Shown here one piece after another: positions 10,274 to 56,700 of a DNA stretch of 64,000 nucleotides. Where the stretch lies: NCBI RefSeq assembly GCF_012271765.1, contig NZ_VRKO01000004.1, forward strand, positions 1-64,000. The letters run 5' to 3'. How positions within the stretch are numbered: position 1 is the first letter of the stretch; each line of letters begins with the position of its first letter. Position numbers and translations under genes: made by a program. Under the pieces are notes generated by a model. It was not told the origin of the DNA, made no database searches, and worked only from the letters and a program-made list of their open reading frames with translations. Origin of the DNA: Erwinia rhapontici. Lineage in GTDB: Bacteria > Pseudomonadota > Gammaproteobacteria > Enterobacterales > Enterobacteriaceae.

Positions 10274-10292
10274 TCCGCGTCACTTAGCTGAC

Positions 10293-10316
10293 AAGGCCAC
10301 AGGGGGTGGCCTTTTT
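10293..10316. terminator. Intrinsic terminator after the SulP gene
   Basis: Stem AAGGCCAC/GTGGCCTT with a 5-nt loop is followed by a T-run. It lies between the convergent SulP and cI genes and marks the edge between host backbone and the phage-tail island. Confidence 0.85.
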
Positions 10317-10330
10317 TGCGGCTGGCCTGC

Positions 10331-10945
10331 TTACAACGGGGTGCAGGCAATCACGATACGGGCCAGCGGGACCAGCTCATTCAGGGCGCATTCAAACTGC
10401 TGCTGACCGTTAGCAACGCGCACGCGTCCGGGAGGAATACGCGTCAGGCTGCGAATACTCACCTGGCCTTCCAGCGACACCAGCCAGTCACCATCCAGGA
10501 CCTCACTGAATGCCTGCTCAGCAATAAACTGCTGGTTGCCTTCAACAATCACCAGCGGCTGTTCAATGGCGCTGGGCCAGGCCTCAAAGAACGCCGCGTC
10601 GACGGCAATGCTGGTGAGCGTTGTCAGCTTTCCGGCGTCCAGGCGTTGACGGGCAAGCGTCTGGGTATTTCCGTTTTGCGAGGGCGGCGTGCGGTTTTCT
10701 GCCGGGCCTGGCTGCTCACCCTCTCCGGTTGCCAGCCACTGCAATGAGGCCTGCGTATCGGCCATGCAGCGGATGACGATATCTGAGGGGAAATAACCGC
10801 GCGAATAGCGATTCGCCAGGCTGCTGCTGGCAATCCCTAAATGCTCAGCCAGCGCCAGTTTCGTGGTAAAGCCGTAGGCCTGGAGCACGCGATCCAGCAC
10901 CTCTTTTGCACCGCTTTGAAAATCGATTTTTAGGCTCACGCTCAA
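10331..10945 (-). CDS. cI: 186-type phage CI repressor
   Basis: A 204-residue repressor closely resembling coliphage 186 CI. The N-terminal DNA-binding domain has the block IASSSLANRYSRG (about residues 37-49) and WLATGEGE (about 70-77). A variable linker follows. The C-terminal oligomerisation domain includes VDAAFF, GDWLVSLEG, SIRSLTRIP and FECALNEL. It would hold the tail operons silent. It lacks an obvious RecA-cleavable Ala-Gly pair with Ser/Lys catalytic residues, as expected for 186 CI, which is inactivated by an SOS-induced antirepressor instead. It is transcribed leftwards, divergent from the LexA-boxed gene at 11407. Confidence 0.87.
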   Translation of the reverse strand: MSVSLKIDFQSGAKEVLDRVLQAYGFTTKLALAEHLGIASSSLANRYSRGYFPSDIVIRCMADTQASLQWLATGEGEQPGPAENRTPPSQNGNTQTLARQRLDAGKLTTLTSIAVDAAFFEAWPSAIEQPLVIVEGNQQFIAEQAFSEVLDGDWLVSLEGQVSIRSLTRIPPGRVRVANGQQQFECALNELVPLARIVIACTPL

Positions 10946-33205: not shown

Positions 33206-34510
33206 TTATCCCAGGCGGGCGATACGCGATCTGGCCTCGTCAAGGTGGCGGCGTAAGGCCTCAAGGCAGGGGGTGAAACTGGCGGAAAAGCGATCGCAGC
33301 TGCTGGCTATAGCAAAGAAGTTCTCCGCCAGACCCAGTGCTTCCCGCCAGACATCCCCACTAATCACTTCCGATAGTGACGCGGGTCGAAGCTCGTTCAC
33401 GATTGCGCCACTCGCTTTGGGTGCGAACCCCATAGGCAGAACGTCATAGGCTGGTGCGAGGTGATATGGGCGACCATGGTGACTGATGAACGACAGGTTT
33501 CCGTGGTGCATATCGGTATTGCCAATCAGGACCCCGAATGCCCAAAGCCGTGCGGTGTCAACGGCGGCATCAGCATGGACATGGCCTTCCGTAATCAGGC
33601 TATTGACCAGCGCTGGCCATGAAGCCCTGGCATTACCGACAAACTCTGCATCCAGTGCCCGCAGCGAGAAGACGCCGACACGGCCCATTTGGCCAATGCG
33701 ATCGAATCGGGGGATCTCGAGGAAGCGCTGTCCAGCAAAATCAAATACCTCTGTTTTAACACCCAGCACCTTTAGCGCCAGGTGTTCGGCCAGCAGGAGG
33801 TCGCGCCAGCGTTCGCTAACCGGGTTGTCATCCGGGGCCGAGAATTTCACTAACACATGGCCACGTTCTGTATAGGTGCAGAATTTCGGCTGTTCACCAC
33901 CCGCAGATGATCCTGGCGCCTCACCCGCAGCCGCCGCCACGGCCAGCTCGGGGTAGGTTGTGTCGCGATCAACGGGGTGGGGTTCTGGCATCTCCAGGAA
34001 ACGCTCCCGTGCCTGCTCCCCTATCAGCAGGTTGCCGATCGCATCATGACCCTGTGCGAGCAACGCCCTGACCACATCCGCGTCTGACCATTGCTCTGGG
34101 TTCGCCGCCAGGCCCAGCCCGACCGCGTGCGTCGATGCCCAGGCTCGCCCGAGATATCCTTGCGGTCGCATGTCAAACAGCCACCACGGCAGCCCGTCGC
34201 TATGGAGGCTCACATTGTCGGTTTGCACCATGACAAACCCGTCAGGGCGAACCGGAATCAGCTCGCCAAGAGGCTGAACGCGCCCTTCATCGGTGATGCG
34301 GTAAACAGGTGCAGACCTGAATCTGCGCCAGGTATCGCGCAGGGCATATTGAATAGAGGGACCCGCCCCGAATCGAACAAGATCGTCACCAAGCTGCCTC
34401 AATGCACGGGACAGTGTTGGCTGGCTAATTTTCATTTTTTCAATCAGTTGCCGTGCTTGCATTGGCCCCTGACTGAGCAACTGGCGTATCGTGTCGAAGC
34501 GATCAGGCAT
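33206..34510 (-). CDS. yjjJ: YjjJ-type HipA-like kinase
   Basis: A 434-residue protein with a fused winged helix-turn-helix (about residues 5-50, MKISQPTLSRALRQLG) and a HipA kinase domain. Kinase landmarks are the glycine-rich GGEQPKF, the VKFSAP lysine region, LAEHLALKVLGV, catalytic loop GNTDMHHGNLSF, and the metal-binding APAYDVLP. E. coli YjjJ has the same layout and HipA proteins phosphorylate tRNA synthetases. The helix-turn-helix may stand in for a separate HipB antitoxin. It is monocistronic; three 12-bp direct repeats lie just upstream. Confidence 0.87.
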   Translation of the reverse strand: MPDRFDTIRQLLSQGPMQARQLIEKMKISQPTLSRALRQLGDDLVRFGAGPSIQYALRDTWRRFRSAPVYRITDEGRVQPLGELIPVRPDGFVMVQTDNVSLHSDGLPWWLFDMRPQGYLGRAWASTHAVGLGLAANPEQWSDADVVRALLAQGHDAIGNLLIGEQARERFLEMPEPHPVDRDTTYPELAVAAAAGEAPGSSAGGEQPKFCTYTERGHVLVKFSAPDDNPVSERWRDLLLAEHLALKVLGVKTEVFDFAGQRFLEIPRFDRIGQMGRVGVFSLRALDAEFVGNARASWPALVNSLITEGHVHADAAVDTARLWAFGVLIGNTDMHHGNLSFISHHGRPYHLAPAYDVLPMGFAPKASGAIVNELRPASLSEVISGDVWREALGLAENFFAIASSCDRFSASFTPCLEALRRHLDEARSRIARLG

Positions 34511-34786: not shown

Positions 34787-35785
34787 ATGCATACCCGAAA
34801 TCTATCTCAAAACCTCTCTGTCAGTTCTGTTGGCTATGGTGCCATGGGGCTGAGCGAATTTTATGGTCAGACTGACGATCAGGCCTCCCTGAAGCTCTTA
34901 CATAAACTCGTTGACCTCGATATCACCTTTATTGACACCGCAAACCTGTATGGCCGTGGCCACAATGAACGTCTGATCGGCCATTTTCTTGCCGGTCTGG
35001 ACAAGACGACTCGTGAGCAGTTCAAAATCGCCACCAAGTGTGGCATCGATCGCTCGCCTGATGAATCCTACGCCCGCACCATCAACAACCAGCCTGACTA
35101 CATCACCCGCTGCTGTAATGAATCTCTCAAAAGACTGGGCGTTGAACGTATTGATCTTTTTTATCTGCACCGGGTCAGCCAGGCGACGCCCATCGAAGAG
35201 AGCATGGAATGCCTGAGCCGCCTTGTTAAAGAAGGCAAGATTAACCACATCGGTCTTTGTGAAGTCTCTGCGGCTACCCTGCACCGGGCACATGCCGTAC
35301 ACCCGCTGGCAGCCCTGCAGACCGAATATTCACTCTGGACGCGCGATATTGAACAGGAAATCCTGCCAGCTGTGAAAGCGTTGGGCATTGGTCTGGTTCC
35401 CTACTCTCCTCTGGGCAGAGGTTTCCTGACCGGTAAGTATCGTAATAATAGTGATTTTGCAGAAGGTGACTTCCGCAAAAACAATGAGCGGTTCATCCAG
35501 TCGAGTCTTGATCACAATGCTCAGTTGCTTGATGTTATGGGCCCGCTCGCGAAAAAATATGGCTGCACTACGGGTCAGATTGCGCTGGCCTGGTTGCTTG
35601 CACAGTATGACAAGCTGGTGCCTATCCCAGGAACCAAGCACATCAGTTACCTGACCGAGAATGCGCAGGCGGCCAATATTGTTCTGGAAGCAACCGATAT
35701 CACCCTGCTGAACAACATTCATCAGCGCGTTGAGATCAAAGGCGGCCGCTACTCTGAGGAGGGCATGAAAGGCGTTAACGCCTGA
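34787..35785 (+). CDS. Aldo/keto reductase
   Basis: A 332-residue AKR of the YajO/AKR13-like type. Catalytic residues appear in FIDTANLYGRG (Asp, Tyr), IATKCGID (Lys) and LFYLHRVS (His); LVPIPGTKHISYLTENAQA binds the cofactor phosphate. AAAAAGGAG precedes the ATG. The gene is AT-richer than the upstream backbone. Its native terminator now appears split by an IS relic. Confidence 0.88.
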   Translation: MHTRNLSQNLSVSSVGYGAMGLSEFYGQTDDQASLKLLHKLVDLDITFIDTANLYGRGHNERLIGHFLAGLDKTTREQFKIATKCGIDRSPDESYARTINNQPDYITRCCNESLKRLGVERIDLFYLHRVSQATPIEESMECLSRLVKEGKINHIGLCEVSAATLHRAHAVHPLAALQTEYSLWTRDIEQEILPAVKALGIGLVPYSPLGRGFLTGKYRNNSDFAEGDFRKNNERFIQSSLDHNAQLLDVMGPLAKKYGCTTGQIALAWLLAQYDKLVPIPGTKHISYLTENAQAANIVLEATDITLLNNIHQRVEIKGGRYSEEGMKGVNA

Positions 35786-35798
35786 GTACTGAGCTCAT

Positions 35799-36438
35799 AA
35801 AAAACCGGGCAATGCCCTAATGCCGATCCGGTGGCTGGTATAAAAAGGGTTCATGTTCATCATGGACCCTTTTTAAATGGAACTTTCATAAGCCCTCGGC
35901 ATTATCAATGCCACCTTCCCAGAGTACGCCCGTAGCCTCTCAGACCTCATTCCTGCTGAATTCATTCAGAAAGCGTTAACGTTGACTGACACTGTCACGC
36001 TCCGCAAACACAAACTTCCTCTTGAATCCATGGATGGTGTTGTCTGGCGCACGGCAGACACGCCGGAAAACAGCGCTGCCTTCAGCCGCTGAAAACACAC
36101 ACACACAATATCAAGTCGTGCGTACAGACCAGAATCGCTATCCGGGCAATAATATCAGTGACTTATATCGACACAGATGGAAAATCGAACGGGGTTATCG
36201 GGAAGTGAAACAGGGAATGTTGGACAGTCGCTGGACGTTACGCAGCAAGTTGCCAGAACTGGTGCGGCAGGAGTGGCGAGCTAACAACGTTGTATGAGAA
36301 AGAAAATGGCGGGTATTACCGGGGGAGAAGAGAGCGAAGTTACCCTCGGAAACGAAGAGTAAATGCACAGAAATATTCGGCGAGAAAAACGGCTGATCAC
36401 CTTAAGTGACCAGCATTAGGGCATTGCCCGGTTTTTTT
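35799..36438. mobile_element. IS4-family relic flanked by terminator halves
   Basis: The relic itself runs from TAATGCCGATCC (35818) to GACCAGCATTA (36419), about 602 bp. That is under half a normal IS4-sized element. Flanking bases form GGGCAATGCCC on the left and GGGCATTGCCC on the right, and the whole 25-mer AAAAAACCGGGCAATGCCCTAATGC is exactly inverted at 36414-36438. Removing the relic would restore a hairpin plus A/T-runs between the convergent genes, a bidirectional terminator. Confidence 0.75.
35880..36300 (+). pseudogene. IS4-family transposase, internally deleted
   Basis: Reading the + strand gives fragments of an IS4-type transposase: an N-terminal piece with TDTVTLRKHKLPLE, then DGVVWRTADTPENSAAF matching the region with the first catalytic Asp. 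An abrupt break near 36090 follows. The C-terminal YREVKQG...LRSKLPELV block (DLYRHRWKIERGYREVKQ, carrying the catalytic Glu of the YREK-like motif) completes it. Stops and large deletions make it inactive. Confidence 0.8.
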
Positions 36439-36462
36439 ATTTCTGGATATGACGGCTGACTG

Positions 36463-37647
36463 TTAGCTTTTCTGCCGGTAAACGCTCAGCGCGACACCTT
36501 CGCCACCGCCAACACACAGTGCAGCCATACCGCGTTGGCTGTTGGTTCGTATCAGGCCGTGTACAAGCGTGACCAGTATACGGCACCCCGACGATCCAAT
36601 AGCATGACCAAGCGCGATAGCACCACCGTAAGGGTTGATGCGCTCTTGTGAAATGCCTGTCTGAGCGATAACTGCGAGAGCCTGCGCCGCAAACGCCTCA
36701 TTTGATTCGAGATGTTCAATGTCTTCTGGCTTCCAGCCTGAACGGGTAAGGCAGTCTGTGATTGCCTGTATCGGAGCGGCACCCATTAGTGCCGGCTTGA
36801 TACCTGAGTTGGTGAACTCTCCCAGAGAAGCCAGAACCGGCAATCCCTGTGCCTCAGCCGTACGCCGGGTGCACAGAAGAACAGCGGCGGCACCGTCGTT
36901 AAGTGAGGAGGCATTACCAGCAGTTACTGTGCCCCCCTTTCTGAATACAGGTTTGAGCTTATCGAGCTTTTCAATGCTGGTCTGACGCGGACCTTCATCA
37001 GTATCAACCCTCTGCGTTTCACCCTTTCTGTTCTGCCACTCTACAGGAACAATTTCGCGTTCAAAGAGGTGCTGCTCCTGCGCCCTGATTGCCTTCATGT
37101 GAGATAAAAGCGCGAATTCGTCCTGCATTTCACGAGTGATACCAAACTCATCCGCCACGTTTTCAGCAGTAACGCCCATGTGGGTATCATCAAAAGCATC
37201 CCACAGCCCATCAGATACCAGACTGTCTTTCATCTCGCTGTTTCCGAGACGTGTCCCGGTACGCGACGATGTCAGGATATGCGGTGCACTGGACATGCTT
37301 TCCTGACCACCAGCAATCACAAACGTTGCCTCTCCGGTGAGCAGTGCCTGCATACCCAGATGAACCGATTTCAGGCCCGAACCGCAGACTTTGTTGATGG
37401 TCATACACTGTGTTTCGACAGGCAGTCCGGCTTTCAGTGCGGACTGGCGTGCGGGGTTCTGACCGCAGCCGGCGGTCAGAACCTGTCCCATAATGACCTG
37501 TGAAATCTCACTGGCTTTGACGCCGGACTCTTCAAGAAGCGCGCGTATAACATGACTTCCCAGCGCGACGGCCGAGTGCCCGGACAGTACACCCATAAAT
37601 GCACCGGTTGCCGTGCGTCTTGCAGAAACAATCACTACTTCATTCAT
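36463..37647 (-). CDS. Acetyl-CoA acetyltransferase-type thiolase
   Basis: A 394-residue thiolase. The nucleophilic Cys is in NKVCGSGLKSVH (about residue 89), the general-base His is in GGAIALGHAIGSSG, and the second Cys is in LCVGGGEG. It resembles AtoB-type biosynthetic thiolases that condense two acetyl-CoA into acetoacetyl-CoA. ATG 37647 has GGAAAAAG upstream; the longer frame is rejected. Last gene of the eight-gene operon, overlapping the previous stop by 4 bp. In this setting it could make a beta-ketoacyl building block. Confidence 0.88.
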   Translation of the reverse strand: MNEVVIVSARRTATGAFMGVLSGHSAVALGSHVIRALLEESGVKASEISQVIMGQVLTAGCGQNPARQSALKAGLPVETQCMTINKVCGSGLKSVHLGMQALLTGEATFVIAGGQESMSSAPHILTSSRTGTRLGNSEMKDSLVSDGLWDAFDDTHMGVTAENVADEFGITREMQDEFALLSHMKAIRAQEQHLFEREIVPVEWQNRKGETQRVDTDEGPRQTSIEKLDKLKPVFRKGGTVTAGNASSLNDGAAAVLLCTRRTAEAQGLPVLASLGEFTNSGIKPALMGAAPIQAITDCLTRSGWKPEDIEHLESNEAFAAQALAVIAQTGISQERINPYGGAIALGHAIGSSGCRILVTLVHGLIRTNSQRGMAALCVGGGEGVALSVYRQKS

Positions 37648-38057
37648 GCACTTTTTCCTTTCAGACCGGGTAATGTATGCCCGGTTGCCGCCATTGCGGC
37701 ACGATAGGCAGTCAGGCCATTCATACAAGCCGGGACGCCTGCATAAACCGCCATCTGAATTACGATTTCAAGCAACTCCTCGGGCGTGACGCCGGTATTG
37801 AGCGCCGCTCTCATATGCAGCTCCAGCTGCGGCATCGCATTACCCAGCGTGACAAGTGATGCCACTGTCAGCATTTCACGGGTCTTGAGGTCCAGCCCGG
37901 GGCGTCCCACCACTGCACCAAATGCGTAGTCGGTGATCAGGGCCGGTAATGAAGGATCAAGTTCAGCCAGTCGTCCGGTGACTTTATCGGCAAGACCGGG
38001 TTCAAGGCGGTCCATGATGTCTTTGCCATAACGGGTCAGATCGCTAGCTTCACTCAT
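37644..38057 (-). CDS. Carboxymuconolactone-decarboxylase-family protein
   Basis: A 137-residue helical protein of the CMD/AhpD-like family: LDPSLPALITDYAFGAVVGRPGLDLKTREMLTVASLVTLG and LELHMRAALNTGVTPEELLEIVIQMAVYAGVPACMNGL. It lacks the CxxC of AhpD, so a PcaC-like lactone-handling role is more likely than peroxidase activity. It overlaps both operon neighbours. Confidence 0.85.
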   Translation of the reverse strand: MSEASDLTRYGKDIMDRLEPGLADKVTGRLAELDPSLPALITDYAFGAVVGRPGLDLKTREMLTVASLVTLGNAMPQLELHMRAALNTGVTPEELLEIVIQMAVYAGVPACMNGLTAYRAAMAATGHTLPGLKGKSA

Positions 38058-39264
38058 AAGATTTCTCCAGAACGTTTTGTGCAGACGCCACGCGCGTCGG
38101 GATAGCCGCCACCAGCAGTACAGAGAGCCCGATGGCCACGCCGGCTACGACGTAGAGCATCGGAACTGAAAATGCGGATACCATCCACGCACCGGCAGAG
38201 GCACCGATACCGATAGCAGTGTTGAAAAATGAAACGTAAACCGCAGAGGCAGGAAAGGTTTTATCTTCAGCCAGGCGCAGGACCCACGTCTGGAAGCCCA
38301 CAAAGATTCCGGATACTGCCACGCCCCAGATAACCATAGCGGTGAAGACAGCATTGCCTGAAAGCGCTGAACCGGAAGTTCCCAGGAATACCAGTACCGC
38401 ACAAATGAGCAGTACTGAAATGGATACTGTCGCCTTAAGATATTTATCAATCATCATGCCGGTCAGGAAATTGCCGGCAAGTCCCGCAATACCGTATACA
38501 AACAGCACAGCCGGAATAACAGATGTGGCCAGTGAATGCTGCGTGTGCAGCCAGGGTTCAATGTACGTAAAGGCAGCAAAGTGCGCGGTGACAGCGAGCA
38601 GCGTAGCAGAATAGATTTTCCACAGTGCAGATGATTTCAGTACGCTTTTGAGCGCCTCAAAGCCAATTGCGCTTTTGCTGGTGATCTGTGGGATCAGCAC
38701 GCTGATACCGGCAAATGCCACCACGCTGAGTATCGCCATCAGCCAGAACGCCTGCCGCCAGCCGAAGTGAATGCCGATATAGTTTGAAACCGGCACGCCA
38801 AACACACTGGCTGCAGATACGCCACCAAATACGATTGAGGTAGCGGCACCAATATATCTTGTCGGCACAATGGAGACGGCCGTTGCCCCAATCATTGCCC
38901 AGAATGCACCGTGTGCCAGCGCTCCCAGCACACGTGCAGCCAGTAGTACCGTGTAAGTGCTCACCGTCGCGGCCAGTACGTTAGACAGGAAAAGGATCAC
39001 GGTGAGCGTAAGCAGCAGCCGCTTCTTGGCCACATTGCCCAGAAACACTGATGCAAAAAGTGCGCTCAGTGCACCTACCCATGCATACAGTGAGACCGTC
39101 ATACCCACGGCTGATTCAGACGCATGCAGGCCGTTTGCGATTGGCGTCAGCAGGCCAACAGGTGCCAGCTCTGTGGTGACGATCGTAAACGTTGAGAGAG
39201 CCAGAATAAAAAGAGCAAGCCACGACCTTAAGGTCATATCCTGCGGAGTGCTTTCTACGTTCAT
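38050..39264 (-). CDS. MFS efflux transporter (DHA1/SotB-AraJ-like)
   Basis: A 404-residue 12-helix major facilitator. The loop between helices 2 and 3 reads GNVAKKRLLL and the N-terminal half has LAPVGLLTPIANGLHASESAVGMTVSLYAWVGA, typical of the arabinose/sugar efflux and chloramphenicol-resistance-like group. In this operon it probably exports the product. It overlaps the downstream gene by 8 bp. Confidence 0.87.
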   Translation of the reverse strand: MNVESTPQDMTLRSWLALFILALSTFTIVTTELAPVGLLTPIANGLHASESAVGMTVSLYAWVGALSALFASVFLGNVAKKRLLLTLTVILFLSNVLAATVSTYTVLLAARVLGALAHGAFWAMIGATAVSIVPTRYIGAATSIVFGGVSAASVFGVPVSNYIGIHFGWRQAFWLMAILSVVAFAGISVLIPQITSKSAIGFEALKSVLKSSALWKIYSATLLAVTAHFAAFTYIEPWLHTQHSLATSVIPAVLFVYGIAGLAGNFLTGMMIDKYLKATVSISVLLICAVLVFLGTSGSALSGNAVFTAMVIWGVAVSGIFVGFQTWVLRLAEDKTFPASAVYVSFFNTAIGIGASAGAWMVSAFSVPMLYVVAGVAIGLSVLLVAAIPTRVASAQNVLEKSYE

Positions 39265-39286
39265 AATTTTTTACCTCTGGAATGAT

Positions 39287-39937
39287 TTAAATAACGGGCC
39301 AGTGTTGGTGAATCGCATGACTGGCAAGCGATGACTTCTTTCCTACGCAAATCGGATGGCCGACGGATTCAAGCATGGGAATATCGGAGAGATCGTCTCC
39401 ATAGGCATAGCAATCCGCAGGACTGATTTCTTTTCCGCGACAGAACGCAATAAGCGCCTCCCGTTTGCCACTGCCAATGGTCTGCGGCGTGCCTATTTCA
39501 CCTGTCAGTGTTCCTGCCTCAGTGAGTTCCAGTGGGGCACAGAGAATCTCCGTGACACCCAGATATCGGGCAACCGGTGCAAGTACAGGACGCATCGATC
39601 CTGAAACAAAGATAGTCAGTCTGTTTTCCGCCTGATGCTGCTTAAGGGCTGCGACGGCACTGTTAATAAAGAGAGTTTTTACACACTGTGATCGGAACCA
39701 TTTTTCACCCACCTCTTCCAGTTTTTTATAACTGACCCCTGAGAACTGTCGGTAATACTCTCTGTTCAGATACTCGCGACTCGTTCCTTTTTTAACGTTT
39801 TCCTTAAACTGCGTCATATAGCATTCAAGCGTGTTCATTTCATTATTTTCACGACACCAGAATGCGTAAAAATCAAACATGCTTTTAATTGTTATAAGGG
39901 TCTCGTCGACATCAAAAAATGCGGCTGATTTCTGCAA
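39287..39937 (-). CDS. HAD-IB family phosphatase
   Basis: A 216-residue SerB-like HAD hydrolase. Motif I is D9-V-D11-E-T13, motif II is FVSGS, and motif IV is YGDDLSDIPM. It removes phosphate from a small molecule. In actinobacterial butyrolactone pathways a phosphatase acts after the AfsA step, so this gene fits such a role. It sits 3 bp after the tautomerase gene. Confidence 0.87.
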   Translation of the reverse strand: MQKSAAFFDVDETLITIKSMFDFYAFWCRENNEMNTLECYMTQFKENVKKGTSREYLNREYYRQFSGVSYKKLEEVGEKWFRSQCVKTLFINSAVAALKQHQAENRLTIFVSGSMRPVLAPVARYLGVTEILCAPLELTEAGTLTGEIGTPQTIGSGKREALIAFCRGKEISPADCYAYGDDLSDIPMLESVGHPICVGKKSSLASHAIHQHWPVI

Positions 39938-39940
39938 AGC

Positions 39941-40165
39941 TTATTCCTCGTAACTCTTTCTTCGGCTTTTTACCGGGAAATCTTTATGATCGCCGGGAAT
40001 ACCTGCATCAGACCAGCGTGAGGGCTGTATTTCAGAAATCACTACAGAGATTTTATCCAGCGGTGCTCCGGTGTTTTTATGCACGGCATAGGTAATGTCC
40101 TCATGCAGCCTGAGCATGTCGCCTTCGTCTTTAGCAGGCCAGGTCGTGATATGTACAAATGGCAT
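39941..40165 (-). CDS. 4-oxalocrotonate-tautomerase-family protein
   Basis: A 74-residue tautomerase-fold protein. After Met removal the N-terminal Pro (MPFVHITTWPAK) is the family catalytic base. NTGAPLDKISVVISEIQPSRWSDAG matches the second strand and arginine region. It likely interconverts keto and enol forms of a pathway intermediate. Confidence 0.85.
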   Translation of the reverse strand: MPFVHITTWPAKDEGDMLRLHEDITYAVHKNTGAPLDKISVVISEIQPSRWSDAGIPGDHKDFPVKSRRKSYEE

Positions 40166-40172
40166 TTTTAAC

Positions 40173-41006
40173 TCACTTTACGGTAATTAATTCATCGAAT
40201 GAGCGGCTTTTCAGTTTCAGATGTGCATGGATATCACCACCCAGCCCATACAGCCCAATTGCGCCCCCGTAGCTCTGGCGGGAACTCATATAAAGGACAA
40301 CCACGTTAATTACCCGATTATCATTGCGTTCATGTGCCGGGAACGGATCGGGTAACTCCGCCCAGTAATCCGCATTGCCATCGTGGTCGGTAATAAATAC
40401 GTTAGGGATACCCAGCGGTCCCGGCCGGCTTGGATTTTCAGTTGCCAGATCCTGCTCACGCAGGCTCATTACGGTATAAACACTGTCGGGAACCAGGTTG
40501 CGAAATGAGAACCTGAACAGCGCGCGCCGGCTGTCTCCTGACAGAAACACCTCAAGACTGCCTTCAGCGCGTAACCAGTCTGCCAGCGTGACAGGCGGGA
40601 TCTGACGTTTACCGTCACTGCTGCGGTAATCTGCGATGTAGCCTTCATGCAAAGGCAGGCTAGGCCGGCTTTCGGTATTAGCCTGTGGCCGCTGCTCTGG
40701 CGCGAACAGCATCCCGTAATTATTCAGCGGTACCGGCAGCGGAAGGGTATGCAGGATCACGTCCTTCAGTTCTGCCTGTGACATGTCATCGATATCACGC
40801 AATATTTTGTAGGGTGCCGTTTCTCCAAAGCCCGGAAGCGGGCTGTCTGCCGCCACAATCATGCTGCGCCATGCCAGGCCGTTGTCTCCTGGCACCATAC
40901 CCACCACGACAAAGTTACCATCCTGATCCATTACCTCCGCAGGGGGATAAAGCGGCCCCTGCGTGGTAGCAGTCAGACGGTATTTCTGACTGCTTATTTC
41001 AGGCAT
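40173..41006 (-). CDS. Unknown 277-residue protein of the AfsA operon
   Basis: I do not recognise a family. There is no signal peptide or membrane segment. The second half looks beta-rich, with FRNLVPDSVYTVMSLRE, GIPNVFITDHDGNADYWAELPDPFP and YGLGGDIHAHLKL. It may be a small-molecule enzyme or binding protein. It overlaps the AfsA-like gene by 8 bp, suggesting the two act together. Confidence 0.8.
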   Translation of the reverse strand: MPEISSQKYRLTATTQGPLYPPAEVMDQDGNFVVVGMVPGDNGLAWRSMIVAADSPLPGFGETAPYKILRDIDDMSQAELKDVILHTLPLPVPLNNYGMLFAPEQRPQANTESRPSLPLHEGYIADYRSSDGKRQIPPVTLADWLRAEGSLEVFLSGDSRRALFRFSFRNLVPDSVYTVMSLREQDLATENPSRPGPLGIPNVFITDHDGNADYWAELPDPFPAHERNDNRVINVVVLYMSSRQSYGGAIGLYGLGGDIHAHLKLKSRSFDELITVK

Positions 41007-41775
41007 GCGCTACCTCAAAGGTCGCACCCTGATGTTCTACTATCGCTGCCTGCATAGCCGCCTCAGCCAGGGATTTCTCTTTCTCAGAAATCAGCCCTGA
41101 AGGGTATACGGTGAATGAGACGTCCATGCTGGCGCAAAGCATCTGATGCTGCGTTACGCGCACCTGGGCTTTGAAACGGCCACGGCGGTCATTAACGTCC
41201 TTCTCAAGATACTCAAAATGAACCAGCGCAGGTAAAGGAAACAGAAAACTCGAAAAGTTTATCGCCATGCTGTTAATGACGTAGTAACGCTCCGTTTCCT
41301 GCTTGTAGATAAATTCTTCAGTAATGGCGATAAACGCCTGACGGCTTGCCTCTACCAAAAGCATTCCCTGAATATGCTGACCGGTCTGATGATCGGCCAT
41401 CAGCTCACAGCGCTCATCGATCAACAGCGGCATAGCAAAAAGATTACTGTTGTGCTCAGTCTGTTCTGCAGGACCTATCAGGACATTCTGCTCCAGCCGT
41501 TTATGGCAGTGTTCATTCTTTTTATCGTTAACAAGCTTTTCAAGAGAACACATTTTTAGTTTATTGCCGTGAATGGTATTTCTCGCCTGATTTGAAAGCA
41601 CTTTCCCGGCAAAATCCTTACGCACACCCTGCCCGATAATAATTTCATGTTCTTTATCGATGATATTTGCAGGGATTTGCGTTAACAGCTCCAGCTGAGA
41701 AATAGTCAGGACATCTTTTCCATTTGCGAATTCATTGAATTTATCGCCGACAACAACCAGTTTCTTACAATTCAT
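40999..41775 (-). CDS. AfsA/ScbA-like hotdog protein
   Basis: A 258-residue protein whose central block resembles the A-factor biosynthesis hotdog domain (AfsA family). HKRLEQNVLIG is at residues 91-101 and DHQTGQHIQGM then LLVEASRQA at 128-147; the His/Gln/Glu-Ala-x-Arg-Gln pattern is the family hallmark. Actinobacterial AfsA joins a beta-ketoacyl chain to dihydroxyacetone phosphate, giving a butenolide phosphate. AfsA has two hotdog repeats; here one is clear and the N-terminal part (residues 1-85) is divergent. The match is from memory. Neighbouring phosphatase, thiolase and exporter support a related pathway. Confidence 0.75.
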   Translation of the reverse strand: MNCKKLVVVGDKFNEFANGKDVLTISQLELLTQIPANIIDKEHEIIIGQGVRKDFAGKVLSNQARNTIHGNKLKMCSLEKLVNDKKNEHCHKRLEQNVLIGPAEQTEHNSNLFAMPLLIDERCELMADHQTGQHIQGMLLVEASRQAFIAITEEFIYKQETERYYVINSMAINFSSFLFPLPALVHFEYLEKDVNDRRGRFKAQVRVTQHQMLCASMDVSFTVYPSGLISEKEKSLAEAAMQAAIVEHQGATFEVAHA

Positions 41776-41785
41776 GAATCATTCC

Positions 41786-42397
41786 TCAGCAACAACAAGC
41801 ACGATAGATACGGGTATAGAGGCCTTCATTTCCTCCGGTAATATAGTTATCACCTGCCTGCTGAATGATTTCCTGGTAGCGTGCATTGGTAAAGGCTTCT
41901 TTATACGTTTCTTTATCGCCATTGAACGCAGAAATGAACATCACACCTGGCACGCCACTGATGAGCGAGTGAAAAGCTTCAAAGCTTTCGATCTTGTCTT
42001 TATTATCTCTTACAACGTTGAAGATCGTTTCGTCGCGCCACTGGCGATACTGCTCATAATTGTGTGCAGGAACTTCAACATGGCGCAGCTGAATATATTT
42101 TGTCTCAGGGAGATCTCTCTTGCTGTCGATAGGTGACTCGACAAACTTCAGAAGTTCTCTGCGAATATCCGCGGAAAGAACGTCAGCAAACTGATGGAAC
42201 ATAGATTCCATCTCTTCTTCCACCCATGATACTTCTTTAATGTCGTTAAACGAACGAAGTTCCAGTAATTCATTTACACCCTGTTCTTCACAAAAATAAT
42301 AGCGCGTGCTCTCAGTGTTTTTTAATGACGAGAAAGTATCAGCAGAAACAGTATTTTTTAATGGGAATCGAGACACCAGCACATAGTTAGATGACAT
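41786..42397 (-). CDS. Unknown 203-residue protein, possible dimeric alpha/beta-barrel
   Basis: First gene of the operon, 10 bp before the AfsA-like gene. No family is certain. The sequence seems to contain two ferredoxin-like halves; the second (about residues 100-175, YIQLRHVEVPAHNYEQYRQWRDETIFNVVRDN...GVMFISAFNG) looks like a NIPSNAP/ABM-type dimeric alpha/beta barrel used by monooxygenases, isomerases and cyclases. It ends in three cysteines (CCC), which is unusual. It may be a pathway cyclase or isomerase; that is inference. Confidence 0.75.
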   Translation of the reverse strand: MSSNYVLVSRFPLKNTVSADTFSSLKNTESTRYYFCEEQGVNELLELRSFNDIKEVSWVEEEMESMFHQFADVLSADIRRELLKFVESPIDSKRDLPETKYIQLRHVEVPAHNYEQYRQWRDETIFNVVRDNKDKIESFEAFHSLISGVPGVMFISAFNGDKETYKEAFTNARYQEIIQQAGDNYITGGNEGLYTRIYRACCC

Positions 42398-42588
42398 TAT
42401 TATCTCCGAAAGGATATGGGATTAGATTTCGAGTGTAATTTATCAATCTGTGACGCAGGTGGAATTGTTAAATGTGTAATATAAATTTTGTATTACTGTA
42501 AAAGAGCCTTTTTCTGAAATGAAATTCCGTGTTATATCTTTACGTATAAATAAGATAGAATAATTTTTCTATTTGAAGGATGGAATCT
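42398..42588. promoter_or_regulatory. Divergent promoter region of the operon and the LysR gene
   Basis: An AT-rich 190-bp spacer between the eight-gene operon and the LysR gene. LysR regulators commonly bind such divergent spacers. A T-N11-A motif is not decisive by eye. Confidence 0.5.
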
Positions 42589-43515
42589 ATGGCAATTGCA
42601 GAACATTTAATCAGTAGCAACCTCCCCAGCGTTAAGCAGCTTCAGTGCTTTCTCGCTGTCGCACATGAGCTGAACTTCCGCAGAGCCGCAGAACGTCTCA
42701 GGATGACCCAACCTCCTCTGACCCGTCAGATAAAGTGCCTGGAAGCTGTGCTGGAGATACAGCTGTTCAGCCGCAGCACGCACGAGGTCAGTCTGACAGA
42801 GGCTGGTCGCGAACTGGTTATCAGGGCAGAGAAGCTCCTTCAGCAGCTCAGCGAAATGAAAACGGCTTCACCTTCCTCAAAGAAGAATCTGCGTATCGGT
42901 CTCACCCGTACGCTGAATTTTGAGCTGATAGAGCCTATCAACAAACAGCTCAATAAACTGGATGCCGGCGATGATGTTGAAACTCCCAATCTGACATCGG
43001 CGCAGCTGCTTCAATGTCTGTCAAAAAACACGCTTGATCTTGTGCTGACTGGCGAGAAAGGCACCGGTCATGAAGACATCGTCCAGTACCGTTGGGTCTA
43101 CCGCGAGCCGCTGTTAATGGCAATGCCGGCTATGCATCCTGCAAGCCTGAAAGAAAAAGTCTCGCTGGAAGACATCTGTGATTTACCGCTCTTCTGGTTT
43201 GCAAGAAGCGCCAATCCCACCTTCTACGATAAGTGCGAAAGCTACTTCGATCGGCTCAGGTTTCCGCTTAAGCGGATCAAAGAGCCAGATGACTCACTGG
43301 TTATGCTCACCCACATCGCCCGGGGCAAGGGGTTTGCCTTGATGCCGCAGTCAAAGTGCACGTTCAATCAGGAGGGTCTATGCTACCGGGAGCTGTCCGA
43401 TCACGAATCGTCAAAGCTGAATATCGATGTCTACGCGGCTACCCGACTCAATGAAAAGCGAGAAGACATCCTGAATGCGCAGGACGTGTTATGTTGTAAC
43501 AATCTGTCAGAGTAG
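42589..43515 (+). CDS. LysR-family regulator of the AfsA operon
   Basis: A 308-residue LysR regulator. The helix-turn-helix is LQCFLAVAHELNFRRAAERLRMTQPPLTRQIKCLE. A weakly conserved substrate-binding domain follows. ATG 42589 is chosen because GAAGGA is 8 bp upstream; ATG 42580 is too close to that site. It is divergent from the operon and probably activates it in response to the product or an intermediate. Confidence 0.9.
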   Translation: MAIAEHLISSNLPSVKQLQCFLAVAHELNFRRAAERLRMTQPPLTRQIKCLEAVLEIQLFSRSTHEVSLTEAGRELVIRAEKLLQQLSEMKTASPSSKKNLRIGLTRTLNFELIEPINKQLNKLDAGDDVETPNLTSAQLLQCLSKNTLDLVLTGEKGTGHEDIVQYRWVYREPLLMAMPAMHPASLKEKVSLEDICDLPLFWFARSANPTFYDKCESYFDRLRFPLKRIKEPDDSLVMLTHIARGKGFALMPQSKCTFNQEGLCYRELSDHESSKLNIDVYAATRLNEKREDILNAQDVLCCNNLSE

Positions 43516-43922: not shown

Positions 43923-43999
43923 TGGTGGCCCCAGCTGGACTTGAACCAGCGACCAAGCGATTATGAGTCGCGTGCTCTAACCAACTGAGCTATGGGGCC
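43923..43999 (-). tRNA. tRNA-Ile2 (CAU anticodon)
   Basis: The minus strand reads a 77-nt cloverleaf from GGCCCCATAGCTCAG to the encoded CCA. The anticodon loop ACTCATAATC gives CAU, and the GCUGGUUCAAGUCC T-arm is normal. It matches E. coli ileX/ileY-type tRNA, in which tilS lysidinylates the CAU wobble C so it reads AUA. CAU alone could also be Met, but the acceptor stem and anticodon stem match Ile2. Confidence 0.92.
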
Positions 44000-51464: not shown

Positions 51465-53168
51465 ATGCTACGGATTGCGTCTGGAAAAGACGGGATAACC
51501 CCTGCTCGTCTCAGTAGTTTGGCCGTTATTATCAGTCTCTTTCATGTCACGAATGTGGCTGCTGCCACGATCGGCGATCAGCAATTAATTAACCAGCAGG
51601 AACGTCAGCGCGCCACTGAACGTCAGCTGGCACCTCCTGCCCCGGACGTCCGTTTACAGGCGCCGGGCAGCTTTTTCAGCCGTATTCAGTTTCCTGCTGA
51701 AGAGCCGTGCTTTGCGCTGCAACATATCGAGTTACAGGGGCGAGAGGCATTCCCGCATTGGATGCCGTTGCAAAAGCTGGCCGATCAGGCGCAGGGACAG
51801 TGCCTTGGCGGTAAGGGTATTAACCTGCTGATGAGTGCCTTGCAGAACCGTCTGGTGGATCACGGCTACGTCACCGCCCGCGTGCTGGCCCCGCCCCAGG
51901 ATATTAATAGCGGCACCCTGAAGCTGTTGCTGGTACCGGGCAAGGTGCGCAATGTCCGCCTGACGCCAGACAGCGATCGTTACGTTCAGCTCTGGAGCGC
52001 CATGCCGGCCCATGCCGGGAATTTGCTGGATCTGCGTGATATTGAACAGGGGCTGGAAAACTTACAGCGCCTGCCCACCGTGCAGGCCGATATGCAGATT
52101 GTTCCCGGTGAGCAGCCGGGCGAAAGTGATATCAACGTCAGCTGGAAGCAGTCGCGCCACTGGCGACTCGGTGCCACGCTGGATGACTCCGGTAGCAAAA
52201 GTACCGGGCGCTATCAGGGCGGCCTGACGCTCTACCTCGATAATCCTCTGTCACTCAGCGATATGTTCTACGTATCCGCAGGTAAGGATTTAGAGCAGGG
52301 CGGCGACAAAGGCAGCAAAAATACCCTGATCCACTACTCAGTGCCGTTTGGTTACTGGACGACGGGCGTCACCTTCAGCGACTACGACTACCACCAGTCG
52401 GGTCTGGGCAGTGGTTTTGACTACCAATACAAGGGTAAGAGCAAAAGCATGAACCTCCAGCTCGGGCGCGTACTGCACCGCAGCGGCAGCCAGAAAACCT
52501 CGTTCAGCTATGAAGTGATGACGCGTCAGTCGCGCAACTACATCGAAGATACCGAGATTGAGCAGCAGCGTCGTCAGACCGCCGCCTGGCGTCTCGGTTT
52601 GCAGCATCGTCACTATATCGGCCAGGCCACGCTGGATACCGGCGTGAGCTATCAGCGCGGGACGCGCTGGTTTGGCGCGGAACCAGCACCGGAAGAGAGC
52701 TATGGCGAAGGCACCGGACTGGCGAAGATTATTCAGCTTTCCGTGCAGCTGAATGCACCGTTCCAACTGTGGGGGCAATCCTTCCGTTATAACGGGCAGT
52801 TCCAGCGCCAGATGACCCATTCTCCGCTGACACCGCAGGATCAGATGTCCATTGGTAACCGCTGGACGGTACGCGGCTTCGATGGTGAATACACTCTGAA
52901 CGGTGACGAAGGCTGGTTTGTACGTAATGACATCGCCTGGCAAACCCCGTTGCCGAATCAGGAACTCTACCTCGGCGCGGACTATGGCGAAGTGAAAGGC
53001 GGCATCGATTATCAGGTCGGTCACCATCTGGCAGGCGGGGTCATCGGCCTGCGCGGCAACGTATTGAATACCGGCTACGACCTGTTTGCGGGCGTGCCGT
53101 TTTCCAAACCGGATGGTTTCAGCACCAGCCCGGTCTCCCTCGGTTTCAATCTGAGCTGGGAATACTGA
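51465..53168 (+). CDS. cdiB: CdiB-type two-partner secretion transporter
   Basis: A 567-residue outer-membrane TpsB protein (ShlB/FhaC family). A signal peptide ends near VAAATIG. Then come an N-terminal alpha-helix, two POTRA domains (about residues 75-235, with [12 protein letters not shown] and [17 protein letters not shown]), and a 16-strand barrel. The VRGF motif of barrel loop 6 reads [11 protein letters not shown] and is intact. It exports CdiA. First gene of the cdiBCA operon. Confidence 0.92.
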
Positions 53169-53169
53169 T

Positions 53170-53688
53170 ATGACGATCCCCGTTAATGGTTTTCAGGTGA
53201 TTTCCCCGCTGTTGAGCAGCGGGTTCAGCGAGTCTGAAGTGCTGGGTGCCAGCGTCTGGTTATGGATGCATTCGGCACAGCACCGCGACATTCCCCTCAG
53301 TGCGCTCCCCACGCTGCTGCTGCCTGCGATCAAGCATCAGCAGTTTGCGCTGGCGATGCGTGACGATAAGCCAGTGTTTTTCCTTAGCTGGGCCTGGCTG
53401 GATGATGAAGCCGAGCAGCGTTATCTCACGCAGCCCGGCATTCACGTTCAGGAGCGGGACTGGAACAGCGGTGACCGTCTGTGGATCCGCGACTGGATTG
53501 CGCCGTTTGGCGATCAGCAGGCACTGCGTCGCCTGGTCGGCGGCACGTTATTTCCGCATCACTGCGTACGTTCGCTGTATCACAAAGGTGAGGAGCGCGG
53601 TCTGCGCGTCATGAATTTTCGTGGTGATGCGGTAACGCATCAGGATTTCGCACGCTGGCAGCGCGACACCCCGCTGGCAAGCCATTAA
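53170..53688 (+). CDS. cdiC: CdiC, toxin-activating lysine acyltransferase
   Basis: A 172-residue HlyC-type acyltransferase. The catalytic His is H38 in HSAQHRDIPLS, with the conserved PAIKHQQFALAM...KPVFFLSWAWLDDEAEQRYL block. HlyC acylates lysines of RTX toxins. CdiC between cdiB and cdiA occurs in one group of CDI loci and may acylate CdiA. It begins 1 bp after the cdiB stop. Confidence 0.87.
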   Translation: MTIPVNGFQVISPLLSSGFSESEVLGASVWLWMHSAQHRDIPLSALPTLLLPAIKHQQFALAMRDDKPVFFLSWAWLDDEAEQRYLTQPGIHVQERDWNSGDRLWIRDWIAPFGDQQALRRLVGGTLFPHHCVRSLYHKGEERGLRVMNFRGDAVTHQDFARWQRDTPLASH

Positions 53689-53707
53689 CTGGAAGGGATG
53701 AACCCAG

Positions 53708-56700
53708 GTGAATAAGAATCTGTATCGCGTAATTTTCAACAAGGCGCGTGGCCTGTTGATGGTGGTGGCCGAAAACGGCCGTGGTCATGGTAAAGGTCCG
53801 GCGGTGAGCGGCGAAGGGCATACGCTCAGCCAGCTGATTGGCCAGCTCTCCCCGCTGGCATTCTTCACGCTGGGGGCGCTGGGCATGGTGGCGCTGATGC
53901 CACAAGCGCAGGCCGCAGGGATTGTCGCCGATGGCAGTGCGCCTTCGGGCCAGCAGCCGATGATCGGGAAAACAGCCAACGGCACGCCGCAGGTGAATAT
54001 TCAGGCACCGAGCGCGGGTGGCGTATCGCGTAATACCTATAGCCAGTTCGACGTTGATAAAAAAGGCGTGATCCTCAATAACTCCCACCGCAATACACAG
54101 ACGCAGCAGGGCGGCTGGGTGGCGGCGAACCCTTATCTGGCACGCGGAGAAGCCAAAGTGATCCTCAACGAGGTGAACTCACGCGACCCCAGCAAGCTGA
54201 ATGGTTATATCGAAGTCGCGGGTAAAAGGGCGCAGGTGGTGATCGCTAACCCCGCCGGTATCACCTGTGACGGCTGCGGTTTTATCAATGCGAACCGTTC
54301 TACGTTGACCACGGGTAAAGCCATTATGCAGAACGGCCAGCTGACCGGATATCAGGTCAATGGCGGGGAGATTGTGGTGCAGGGGGCGGGAATGGACAGC
54401 AGCCGCCAGGACTATACCGATCTGATTGCGCACACGGTGAAAGTGAACAGTGGTATCTGGGCCAGCGATCTGAAAGTGACGACCGGTAAAAACCGCGTCA
54501 GCGCTGACGGCGCCAGCGTCAGCAAAAATACGGACAGTGATAACGATGTGAAGCCAGCGCTGGCGCTGGATGTGGCCAACCTTGGCGGCATGTACGCCGG
54601 GAAAATCCAGCTGATTGGTACAGAAAGCGGTGTTGGCGTACGTAACGCGGGAACGCTGGGGGCGCAGGCCGGTAGTGTCACCCTCAGCGCCGACGGGCAT
54701 ATCGAAAACAGCGGTAAGATCAACGCCAGTGAAGATATTCAGGTGAGTGGTCGTGCGCTGAGCAACAGCGGTACGCTGTATGCCGGACGCGATACGCGTG
54801 CCAGCGTCAGCGGTCAGTTGAACAACGATGGCATGGTGGTCGCGGCGCGTCACACCAGCGCCCGTGCAGGTGAAATCAACAGTAGCAAAAATGCCGTCTT
54901 TGGCGGTGGGGTGAAAACCGATGGCCGCCTGGGAGAAAGCGGCGATCTGGATCTCACCAGCACCGGCAAGCTGGCCAGCCACGGGCAGAACCTGGCGGCC
55001 GGAAAACTCACCGTGCAGGCGGCCGATATTGACCTCAGCGACAGCCAGACCAGCGCAGCGGAGGTGGCATTGACCACTCAGGGCACGCTGAATAACGATC
55101 GTGGAACGGTCTCTGCGCACAGCGGCGATCTGACCCTGACCAGCAGTCAGTTAAGCAACAGCGGGGGGACGCTGTATGCCGGACGTGATATGCATACCAG
55201 CGTCAGCGGACAGCTGAATAATGACGGGCTGATCGCCGCCGGACGCGATACCCGCGCCAGCGCCGGTGAGCTGAACAGCAGTAAAAATTCGGTGTTCGGC
55301 GCGGGGATTAATGCGGATGGCGGCGTGGGAAATAGCGGCAATCTGACGCTGACCAGCACCGGGAAACTGGCGAGTAACGGGCAGAATCTGGCCGCCGGAA
55401 AACTCACGGTGCAGGCTGCAGAGATCGACCTGAGCGACAGTCGCAGCGCGGGATCGGACGTCACCCTGACCTCGGGCGGCGCACTGAATAACGATCGCGG
55501 GATGATCTCCGCACTGAGCGGCGATCTCTCCCTGACCAGTGCGCAGCTTGATAATAACGGTGGGCGTCTGGAGTCGGCGGGCAAGGTGCAGGTGCGCAGC
55601 GCCGGGATTAACAACGTTGGCGGAACGATGGTTGGCCAGCAGTTGACGCTGGACAGCGCTGGCCAGGCACTCAACAACCAGAATGGCGGCATTGCGGCGA
55701 CGGAGGGCGTCACGCTTACGGCAGGTGCGCTGAATAATGAGGGCGGCAAGGTGATTGCCGGGAAAAACCTCAACGCCGGCGTTCAGTCGGTGAGCGGTAA
55801 CGGGCAGTTGCTCTCACTCGGAGACATGCAGCTGGCGGTCAACGGTGACTTCAGTAACGTGGGCAGTACGCTGGCGAACGGCAATCTTGACCTTAACGTG
55901 CAGGGCGCGCTGGATAACGCCGGGCAACTCAATGCCGGCAAGCAGTTAGCGGTGACGGCCGCCAGCCTGAACAACCAGCAGAGTGGCGATATCAGTGGTC
56001 AGATCACCCACGTGGATGTCGGTAGCAGCCTGACCAACCGTGGCATTATTGACGGTGTGGAAACCGTGCTGCGTGCCGGAACGCTGAACAATATCGGCAG
56101 CGGACGTATTTATGGCGATCATCTGGCGATCCAGGCCGGTGAGTTGAATAACGTGGCGGAAGGTGAGAGTGCGGCGACCATTGCTGCACGCCAGCGCCTG
56201 GATCTCGGTGTCGGAACGCTGAATAACAGCGCCCACAGCCTGATTTACAGCGATGGGGATATGTCGATTGGTGGTCAGCTGGATGAGAACAATGCCGCCA
56301 GCGGCCGGGCGACGACGATCAACAACCACAGCGCGACGATCGAATCTATCGGCAACATGCTGATCAATACCGCCACCCTGAACAATATTAACGACCACTT
56401 TGCTACCGAGATGGTGCACCTCTCGGACGAGCAAAAAGAAGAATATATGGTGGTCGGTCTGAATAATGGTGTGCATTACGGCACCAGCGATTATGACATC
56501 AGCTTCTATCATGACGAAGTGCAGCACATCTGCATTAGCGGCGTGGTGTGTAATCAGGATCATTACTACCAGTATGCTTACACCCAGAGCACCTGGCAGG
56601 AACAGATCACGGAAAGCGATCCGGCGCAGATCCTTGCGGGCGGCAGTCTGGCGATCAACGCTGACAATACCCTTAACGATAAGAGCCGCATTATTGCCGG

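Follow-up and report, generated by a model that had tools for sequence, protein, structure and literature searches.

What does a compact operon built around an AfsA-family protein make in a member of the Enterobacteriaceae, and what is its product good for? The question is raised by a stretch of 64,000 nucleotides of the Erwinia rhapontici genome (contig NZ_VRKO01000004.1, positions 1 to 64,000; hereafter the window), in which eight minus-strand open reading frames (ORFs) lie end to end at positions 36463-42397, with no gap larger than 22 bp. These genes are best read as an operon whose products synthesise a small, diffusible molecule. Beyond this, we consider it rather probable that the block is an enterobacterial version of the killing cluster of Ruegeria pomeroyi DSS-3 (PMC7426152) and that it directs the synthesis of a small, exported antimicrobial that probably induces its own production. 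For the window, this conclusion rests on gene content, gene order, conservation and genomic context, while killing, self-immunity and afsA-dependent transcription were shown for the R. pomeroyi relative and would extend to Erwinia by analogy. Together with a divergent LysR gene and a convergent aldo/keto reductase gene, the eight-gene operon forms a ten-gene block (34787-43515) with the following features.

34787-35785, plus strand: aldo/keto reductase, 332 amino acids; PF00248, 261.5 bits; convergent to the operon
35799-36437, no strand: IS4-family remnant between the aldo/keto reductase and thiolase genes, with 30-nt inverted ends
36463-37647, minus strand: thiolase, 394 amino acids; Thiolase_N/C; TIGR01930, 427.6 bits against a cut-off of 240.55
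37644-38057, minus strand: carboxymuconolactone-decarboxylase family (CMD) protein, 137 amino acids; PF02627, 72.3 bits
38050-39264, minus strand: MFS transporter, 404 amino acids; PF07690 (MFS_1); proposed export/immunity pump
39287-39937, minus strand: HAD-IB phosphatase-type protein, 216 amino acids, TTG start; PF12710; TIGR01490
39941-40165, minus strand: 4-oxalocrotonate-type tautomerase, 74 amino acids; PF01361, 28.1 bits
40173-41006, minus strand: UNK277, 277 amino acids, conserved core gene without a known family; no Pfam match
40999-41775, minus strand: AfsA-family protein of the single-hotdog type, 258 amino acids; PF03756, 47.4 bits
41786-42397, minus strand: UNK203, 203 amino acids, conserved core gene without a known family; no Pfam match
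42461-42496, no strand: putative LysR operator; GTAATA-N9-TATTAC palindrome (42476-42496) and an adjoining conserved 23-mer (42461-42483)
42580-43515, plus strand: LysR-family regulator, 311 amino acids; PF00126/PF03466 (DNA-binding helix-turn-helix and substrate domains); divergent

The first-pass annotation of this DNA had described eight tightly packed genes and a divergent LysR gene. These ORFs are indeed present, with junctions of -4, -8, 22, 3, 7, -8 and 10 bp from the thiolase gene to the UNK203 gene; the tenth gene, encoding the aldo/keto reductase, had been overlooked. Pfam names six of the eight operon proteins (thiolase, CMD, MFS, HAD, tautomerase and AfsA), which bears out the earlier family assignments, and the two proteins of 277 and 203 amino acids that had been left unrecognised are without a Pfam family. 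Translation of the thiolase gene most likely begins at the ATG at 37647, rather than at the TTG of the mechanically derived ORF.

The AfsA-family protein and the other products of the operon

The PF03756 match of the 40999-41775 product exceeds the cut-off of 24 bits and covers residues 91-222; in a search of the whole genome it scored 48.6 bits, and no second PF03756 match was found there. The protein hence lies within the AfsA family, as had been proposed. Two hotdog domains define the ScbA/BarX gamma-butyrolactone synthases. The window protein possesses a single detectable PF03756 hotdog preceded by a distinct N-terminal region of about 85 amino acids, and with the equivalog model for these synthases (NF041195) it reached 20.4 bits against a cut-off of 200. 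Of the butyrolactone logic that had been suggested for the operon, the pairing of an AfsA-family protein with a HAD-IB phosphatase therefore stands, but a gamma-butyrolactone synthase of the ScbA/BarX type does not. A profile of the short-type AfsA proteins gave 129-417 bits to short-type sequences, most of which had been used to build it, and 41-65 bits to seven double-hotdog enterobacterial proteins of 334-335 amino acids. Such double-hotdog proteins (367 amino acids in L012) are present in loci L010-L016 and L018 from several enterobacterial genomes.

The HAD protein scores 134.5 bits with the HAD-IB hydrolase model TIGR01490 (cut-off 98.3), in agreement with the earlier phosphatase call. 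The thiolase belongs to its superfamily, and it reached no equivalog cut-off among the best 25 of the 44 families listed. Alignments contain the Cys/His/Cys motifs of the thiolase and FFDVDET and GDDxSD-like motifs of the HAD protein, which we take to play their accustomed roles. The tautomerase has a proline directly after the initiating methionine, as do all 13 aligned sequences. Membership of the CMD protein in the PcaC equivalog is not supported (TIGR02425, 79.9 bits against a cut-off of 155.7), and the models nearest to the MFS protein, PRK03545 (244.3 bits) and the chloramphenicol efflux family Cmx/CmrA (173.5 bits), both remained below their cut-offs. Perakine reductase provides the best-matching solved sequences for the aldo/keto reductase.

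No convincing sequence match in the PDB was found for AfsA, UNK203 or UNK277. Searches with seven relatives each of UNK277 and UNK203, carried to an E value of 10, gave scattered weak matches only (best E 0.0067 and 0.1, respectively), and the structures predicted for the two proteins were poor (mean predicted local distance difference test scores of 36.9 and 48.1, respectively). Weaker relatives of UNK277, 27-36% identical to it along roughly half of its length, occur in other gammaproteobacteria, at no more than three matches per genome; three resemble its C-terminal half (L067 6031-6981, L068 7003-7743 and L069 7015-7755). In some of these proteins, we read the N terminus as signal-like.

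Relationship to the killing cluster of R. pomeroyi DSS-3

Among plasmid records, the best match of the AfsA protein (37.3% identity over 96%) is encoded on the megaplasmid of R. pomeroyi DSS-3. There, the UNK203, AfsA, UNK277, tautomerase and HAD genes follow each other in an order identical to that in the window, and genes for an MFS transporter, a CMD protein, an aldo/keto reductase and a LysR protein lie alongside. Identities to the window proteins span 37-59%, with 42% for the MFS, 51% for the CMD and 52% for the aldo/keto reductase proteins. The afsA gene is flanked by homologues of UNK277 (54%) and UNK203 (59% over 64%); from the gene order and the numbering used in the paper, we infer that SPOA0341 corresponds to UNK277, SPOA0343 to UNK203, and SPOA0344 to the adjoining LysR gene.

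In the part of that study available to us, this region is described as a cluster for diffusible killing and self-immunity (PMC7426152; mSystems, 2020). A screen of 10,000 mutants yielded six complete non-killers with transposon hits in the cluster, three of them in afsA, two in SPOA0341 and one in SPOA0344. The afsA mutants were still immune, SPOA0341 mutants recovered less well, and the SPOA0344 regulator mutant, the most sensitive, fell below detection. Ten cluster genes, SPOA0344 not among them, were expressed at 4- to 60-fold higher levels in the wild type than in the afsA mutant, in which 21 genes altogether were changed. A homologue of SPOA0342 was reported from 35 organisms, gammaproteobacteria and actinobacteria included, and in 29 of them together with both neighbours. 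The authors did not identify the killing compound (PMC7426152), and we found no later identification in the open-licence PMC literature. Hence, the initial view that no described pathway has this content has to be given up, as nearly the same gene content was already on record from genetic work in R. pomeroyi DSS-3. Killing there requires the cluster, and most of the cluster requires afsA for its transcription; both facts are more in keeping with an antibiotic that doubles as inducer of its own genes than with a signal alone. Of the two functions between which the first-pass annotation had left the choice, signal or antibiotic, the latter is thus favoured.

The complete block recurs in different genomic contexts

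A synteny survey had been suggested as a check. Besides the window, it covered L002-L006 (from Cedecea, Buttiauxella, Enterobacter and Lelliottia) and L056-L061 (Erwinia), and at these 12 complete loci the block is kept together as one unit. Since these loci were found by an AfsA search, AfsA is present in them by construction; L066 and L020, which represent the L002 contig again, were left out of the count. Nine of the ten genes are present at all 12 loci, among them the aldo/keto reductase gene, and the CMD gene is present at 11 (it is missing from L061). Compared by blastn (E 1e-20) over up to about 10 kb, flanks matched only within L004/L005/L006 and within L058/L059/L060, which places the 12 loci in about eight contexts. 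Retention of the block in so many contexts, together with its low G+C content (0.500 versus 0.571 in the rest of the window), is not attributable to chance, and on sequence grounds the block behaves as a transferable cassette.

The short-type AfsA was found in 7 of 37 Erwinia genomes. PF03756 proteins of any kind occurred in 20 of 392 genomes sampled from the family, 15 of which carry proteins that fall outside the short single-hotdog type by the profile described above. Plasmid records with UNK277 were two in number (Ruegeria and Streptomyces sp. YIM 121038), and UNK203 was found in these and in an E. hormaechei record. The 7.1 kb operon had no DNA match in 20,395 E. coli records (megablast only), AfsA and UNK203 had none in phages, and no study of the operon in Enterobacteriaceae was found in the open-licence PMC literature.

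A proposed route to a short butenolide

AfsA-type and AvrD-type enzymes are described, in the sources partly available to us and largely as proposals, as coupling beta-ketoacyl chains with C3 or C5 partners. An enzyme that makes beta-ketoacyl units stands beside AfsA and HAD in three types of cluster, namely a thiolase at the 12 enterobacterial loci, a thiolase in L062, and KASIII with an acyl carrier protein (ACP) in a Streptomyces cluster (L008). This supports the notion that the thiolase feeds AfsA, and it lends some weight to the earlier suggestion of a short beta-ketoacyl unit. We propose acetoacetyl-CoA as this unit because the best-scoring models for the thiolase, PRK05656 (below its cut-off) and TIGR01930, describe acetyl-CoA acetyltransferases/acyltransferases; they do not fix its substrate. 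The thiolase would thus form acetoacetyl-CoA, which the AfsA-family protein may join to dihydroxyacetone phosphate to yield a phosphorylated butenolide; the HAD protein would then strip off the phosphate, and the tautomerase, the CMD protein, UNK203, UNK277 and perhaps the aldo/keto reductase could finish or rearrange the ring of the resulting short butenolide. L062 (7857-16355) is a separate enterobacterial AfsA cluster in its own right, with genes for HAD, AfsA, thiolase, a flavin monooxygenase, aldo/keto reductase, MFS, a further aldo/keto reductase and LysR.

LysR and MFS genes in genomes without AfsA

A search with the MFS protein found it in 8 of 37 Erwinia genomes (seven with AfsA), in 9 of 392 genomes of the family sample (two with AfsA) and in 6 of 61 Enterobacter genomes (three with the full cluster), so that seven of nine and three of six MFS-positive genomes in the last two sets lack AfsA. 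This AfsA was not found in any of the 11 other MFS-positive genomes (E 0.01), while the same query was positive in the seven Erwinia genomes. At all 11 AfsA-less loci, an orthologous LysR gene (46-81% identical) adjoins the MFS gene or, in L077, the row of genes holding it; its orientation to the MFS gene is divergent in ten cases and convergent in one (L102). The aldo/keto reductase gene is also present at five of these loci (L077, L078, L079, L101, L102) and the CMD gene at two (L096 and L097), L096 being a 7 kb contig past whose ends genes are invisible. L077 retains the tautomerase gene and pieces of the UNK203, HAD and thiolase genes. A control search with UNK277 at a looser threshold found it in 2 of 392 family and 3 of 61 Enterobacter genomes, exactly those with the full cluster, and never alone.

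In Enterobacter, full (L004-L006), decayed (L070/L077) and minimal (L078, L079) states share their flanks and hence occupy one chromosomal site, beside uhpT/DUF1198 and nepI according to the annotation of the E. hormaechei locus L070. The alignment of L078 with L079 is unbroken, so that their minimal state may represent a single event. Pairwise ratios of non-synonymous to synonymous substitution rates (dN/dS; NG86) were calculated for six pairs, which draw on nine AfsA-less loci (all but L099 and L102); several dS values were above 1. The ratios were 0.07-0.16 for MFS, 0.07-0.14 for the reductase (three pairs) and 0.02-0.10 for LysR (one pair could not be computed). These low values indicate that purifying selection acts on the retained genes even where the biosynthetic genes are missing. 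Taken by itself, the genomic pattern suggests that LysR and MFS form an immunity module retained by non-producers. The MFS pump would export the product, the reductase and the CMD protein may help immunity, and the LysR-MFS pair would be the part that non-producing relatives keep.

Both kinds of loci share a putative operator. At all 11 other complete loci, the 23-mer at 42461-42483 is found again in the interval separating LysR from the first divergent gene (zero to five mismatches), and ten AfsA-less loci have it there too (one to five mismatches). In L102, the LysR-MFS gap has no such site, and the MFS-reductase gap contains one with four mismatches that points to MFS, so that the putative operator precedes retained genes at each of the 11 AfsA-less loci. 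A match as good arose in none of 300 shuffles for L102 and in at most 1 of 1000 first-order shuffles for the other 21 sequences; in the window, the pattern derived from the operator occurs once. LysR may sense the product and activate the operon through this site. A sigma-70-like promoter was not found in 42300-42700, where 1.5 would be expected by chance, a result of little weight.

Weighing of alternative explanations

Could the block serve signalling only, making a non-toxic gamma-butyrolactone or butenolide pheromone sensed by LysR, with the killing in Ruegeria switched on elsewhere? Streptomyces AfsA proteins do make signals, transcription of the R. pomeroyi cluster needs afsA, and its authors, as far as the text available to us goes, leave this option open (PMC7426152). 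However, with ten of the 21 genes changed in the afsA mutant belonging to the cluster itself, few outside genes are left for a separate toxin (PMC7426152), and a transporter retained by non-producers is more readily understood for a toxic compound than for a simple signal; we regard this explanation as improbable. More improbable still is a catabolic operon in which thiolase, CMD, tautomerase and LysR degrade an aromatic compound or a lactone and the MFS protein acts as importer. CMD (PcaC-like) proteins, 4-oxalocrotonate-type tautomerases and beta-ketothiolases are usual in beta-ketoadipate and meta-cleavage pathways, and LysR, whose closest curated match is AlsR, has weaker matches to BenM and CatM. 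Yet the ten genes include no recognisable ring-cleaving oxygenase or CoA transferase, the AfsA family consists of synthases, and the R. pomeroyi relative was needed for killing. A third alternative concerns the immunity part only and is compatible with a cluster for an exported antimicrobial: the stand-alone LysR-MFS pairs may be an older general efflux module captured by the cluster, neither a relic nor a specific immunity. The pairs occur in several genera, interleaved with producers in an MFS tree in which several nodes are weakly supported, and the nearest curated MFS models are general transporters. The full, part-decayed and minimal states at one Enterobacter site, the gene pieces in L070/L077, and the reductase or CMD gene still beside the pair at 7 of 11 loci speak against it, and we judge it unlikely, though less so than the two preceding explanations.

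Several observations weigh against an exported, self-inducing antimicrobial with retained immunity. We know of no compound for any of the related clusters. The AfsA protein is only 37% identical to that of Ruegeria, so that the product may differ, and the annotation of the 18.7 kb Ruegeria region lists no thiolase, while the window has its own. The Ruegeria LysR is not orthologous (a 65-amino-acid helix-turn-helix match of 38.5 bits; 25.8 bits for a second LysR), and no operator was found in Ruegeria, where 803 of 1000 shuffles matched as well and the best site in the whole locus had eight mismatches. The shuffle counts overstate the case, because the operator motif had been chosen as the best from about 240 candidate 23-mers and because the loci are related to one another; in L102, LysR is convergent and the site was seen on a second look only. 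The top-scoring MFS model carries a sugar-transporter name. The stand-alone loci were found by an MFS search, and MFS is therefore present in them by construction; outside Enterobacter, the pairs might predate the cluster instead of being its relics. Finally, L064 is a decayed locus with an AfsA of the short type (61% identity) that keeps UNK203, a cut-off AfsA gene and LysR pieces (8256-10945) and has no MFS gene within 18 kb, a counterexample to the pump always being kept.

A more specific version of the antimicrobial explanation, namely that a mobile cassette makes a new acetoacetate-derived butenolide-type antimicrobial while non-producers in several genera keep a reduced immunity in which LysR senses the product of the competitor and switches on the matching pump, some with a detoxifying reductase, is in our view somewhat less likely than not. 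If it were true, Enterobacter would show an old loss of production with retained immunity as a series from full through decayed to minimal at one site. The stand-alone LysR-MFS loci would then document an immunity that outlasted the weapon, and from them it could be predicted which bacteria are resistant to the compound. With a thiolase of its own that points to the starter unit, the closely similar gene set of these fast-growing Enterobacteriaceae would also offer a tractable route to the R. pomeroyi compound.

Surroundings of the block

The IS4-family remnant is inserted in the terminator between the two convergent genes, and no gene of the block is broken by it; its inverted ends include terminator-stem sequence. 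In L056, a relative with 93% identity, the terminator is uninterrupted, and the reductase and thiolase genes are immediate neighbours, with a single terminator-like stem between them. On one side of the block lies a gene for a HipA-like protein with an N-terminal winged-helix match (33206-34510) and on the other a tRNA-Met gene (43923-43999). Farther along (51465-61519), a ShlB/FhaC-type transporter gene is followed by an ORF of 2603 amino acids, an arrangement resembling a two-partner secretion pair.

Comparison with known systems

The canonical synthases AfsA, ScbA and BarX share the PF03756 hotdog domain with the window protein, which differs from them in the domain count, N-terminal region and NF041195 score given above; a TetR-type receptor gene, as in A-factor/gamma-butyrolactone systems, was not found among the ten genes of the window. 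A second enterobacterial case is the antibiotic locus of ICEPan in Pantoea ananatis, which, in the available part of its description, has an AfsA-like gene on a mobile element and differs in content, with relatives of Fom1/Fom2, SsfC/SsfD and StrU (PMC4458695). This locus was set aside as a counterpart since its other genes are not those of the block. Set apart as well, by description, were the Pantoea natural products PNP-1 to PNP-5, whose accounts, as far as available to us, name no AfsA, thiolase or butyrolactone; PNP-1 is an oxyvinylglycine, and PNP-2 comprises six genes including one for a ferredoxin reductase.

For the methylenomycin pathway of Streptomyces coelicolor, the accessible text proposes that an acetoacetyl thioester and a sugar-derived partner form a butenolide that is rearranged to the antibiotic, and the efflux gene mmr confers resistance (PMC12593393). 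Its enzyme MmyD is described as AvrD-like, with a pentulose partner (PMC12593393); we liken the pathway to the one proposed here by description, not by sequence. The plasmid cluster of Streptomyces sp. YIM 121038 (L008) encodes AfsA, HAD, UNK203 (34% over 85%), UNK277 (49%) and an aldo/keto reductase (43%) like the window, at 28-49% identity. It has KASIII, ACP and a TauD-type dioxygenase where the window has a thiolase, and its region gave no match for tautomerase, CMD or MFS. AfsA, HAD, UNK203, UNK277 and the reductase are thus common to the window, Ruegeria (L007) and Streptomyces. R. pomeroyi DSS-3 remains the closest of these systems, with the MFS and CMD genes located in a divergent row with the reductase gene rather than inside the operon as in the window. 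The kind of pathway is already known from its genetic description in this marine bacterium; what seems new here is an enterobacterial variant with a thiolase, the ten-gene extent of the block, and a LysR-MFS pair that appears to outlive the weapon.

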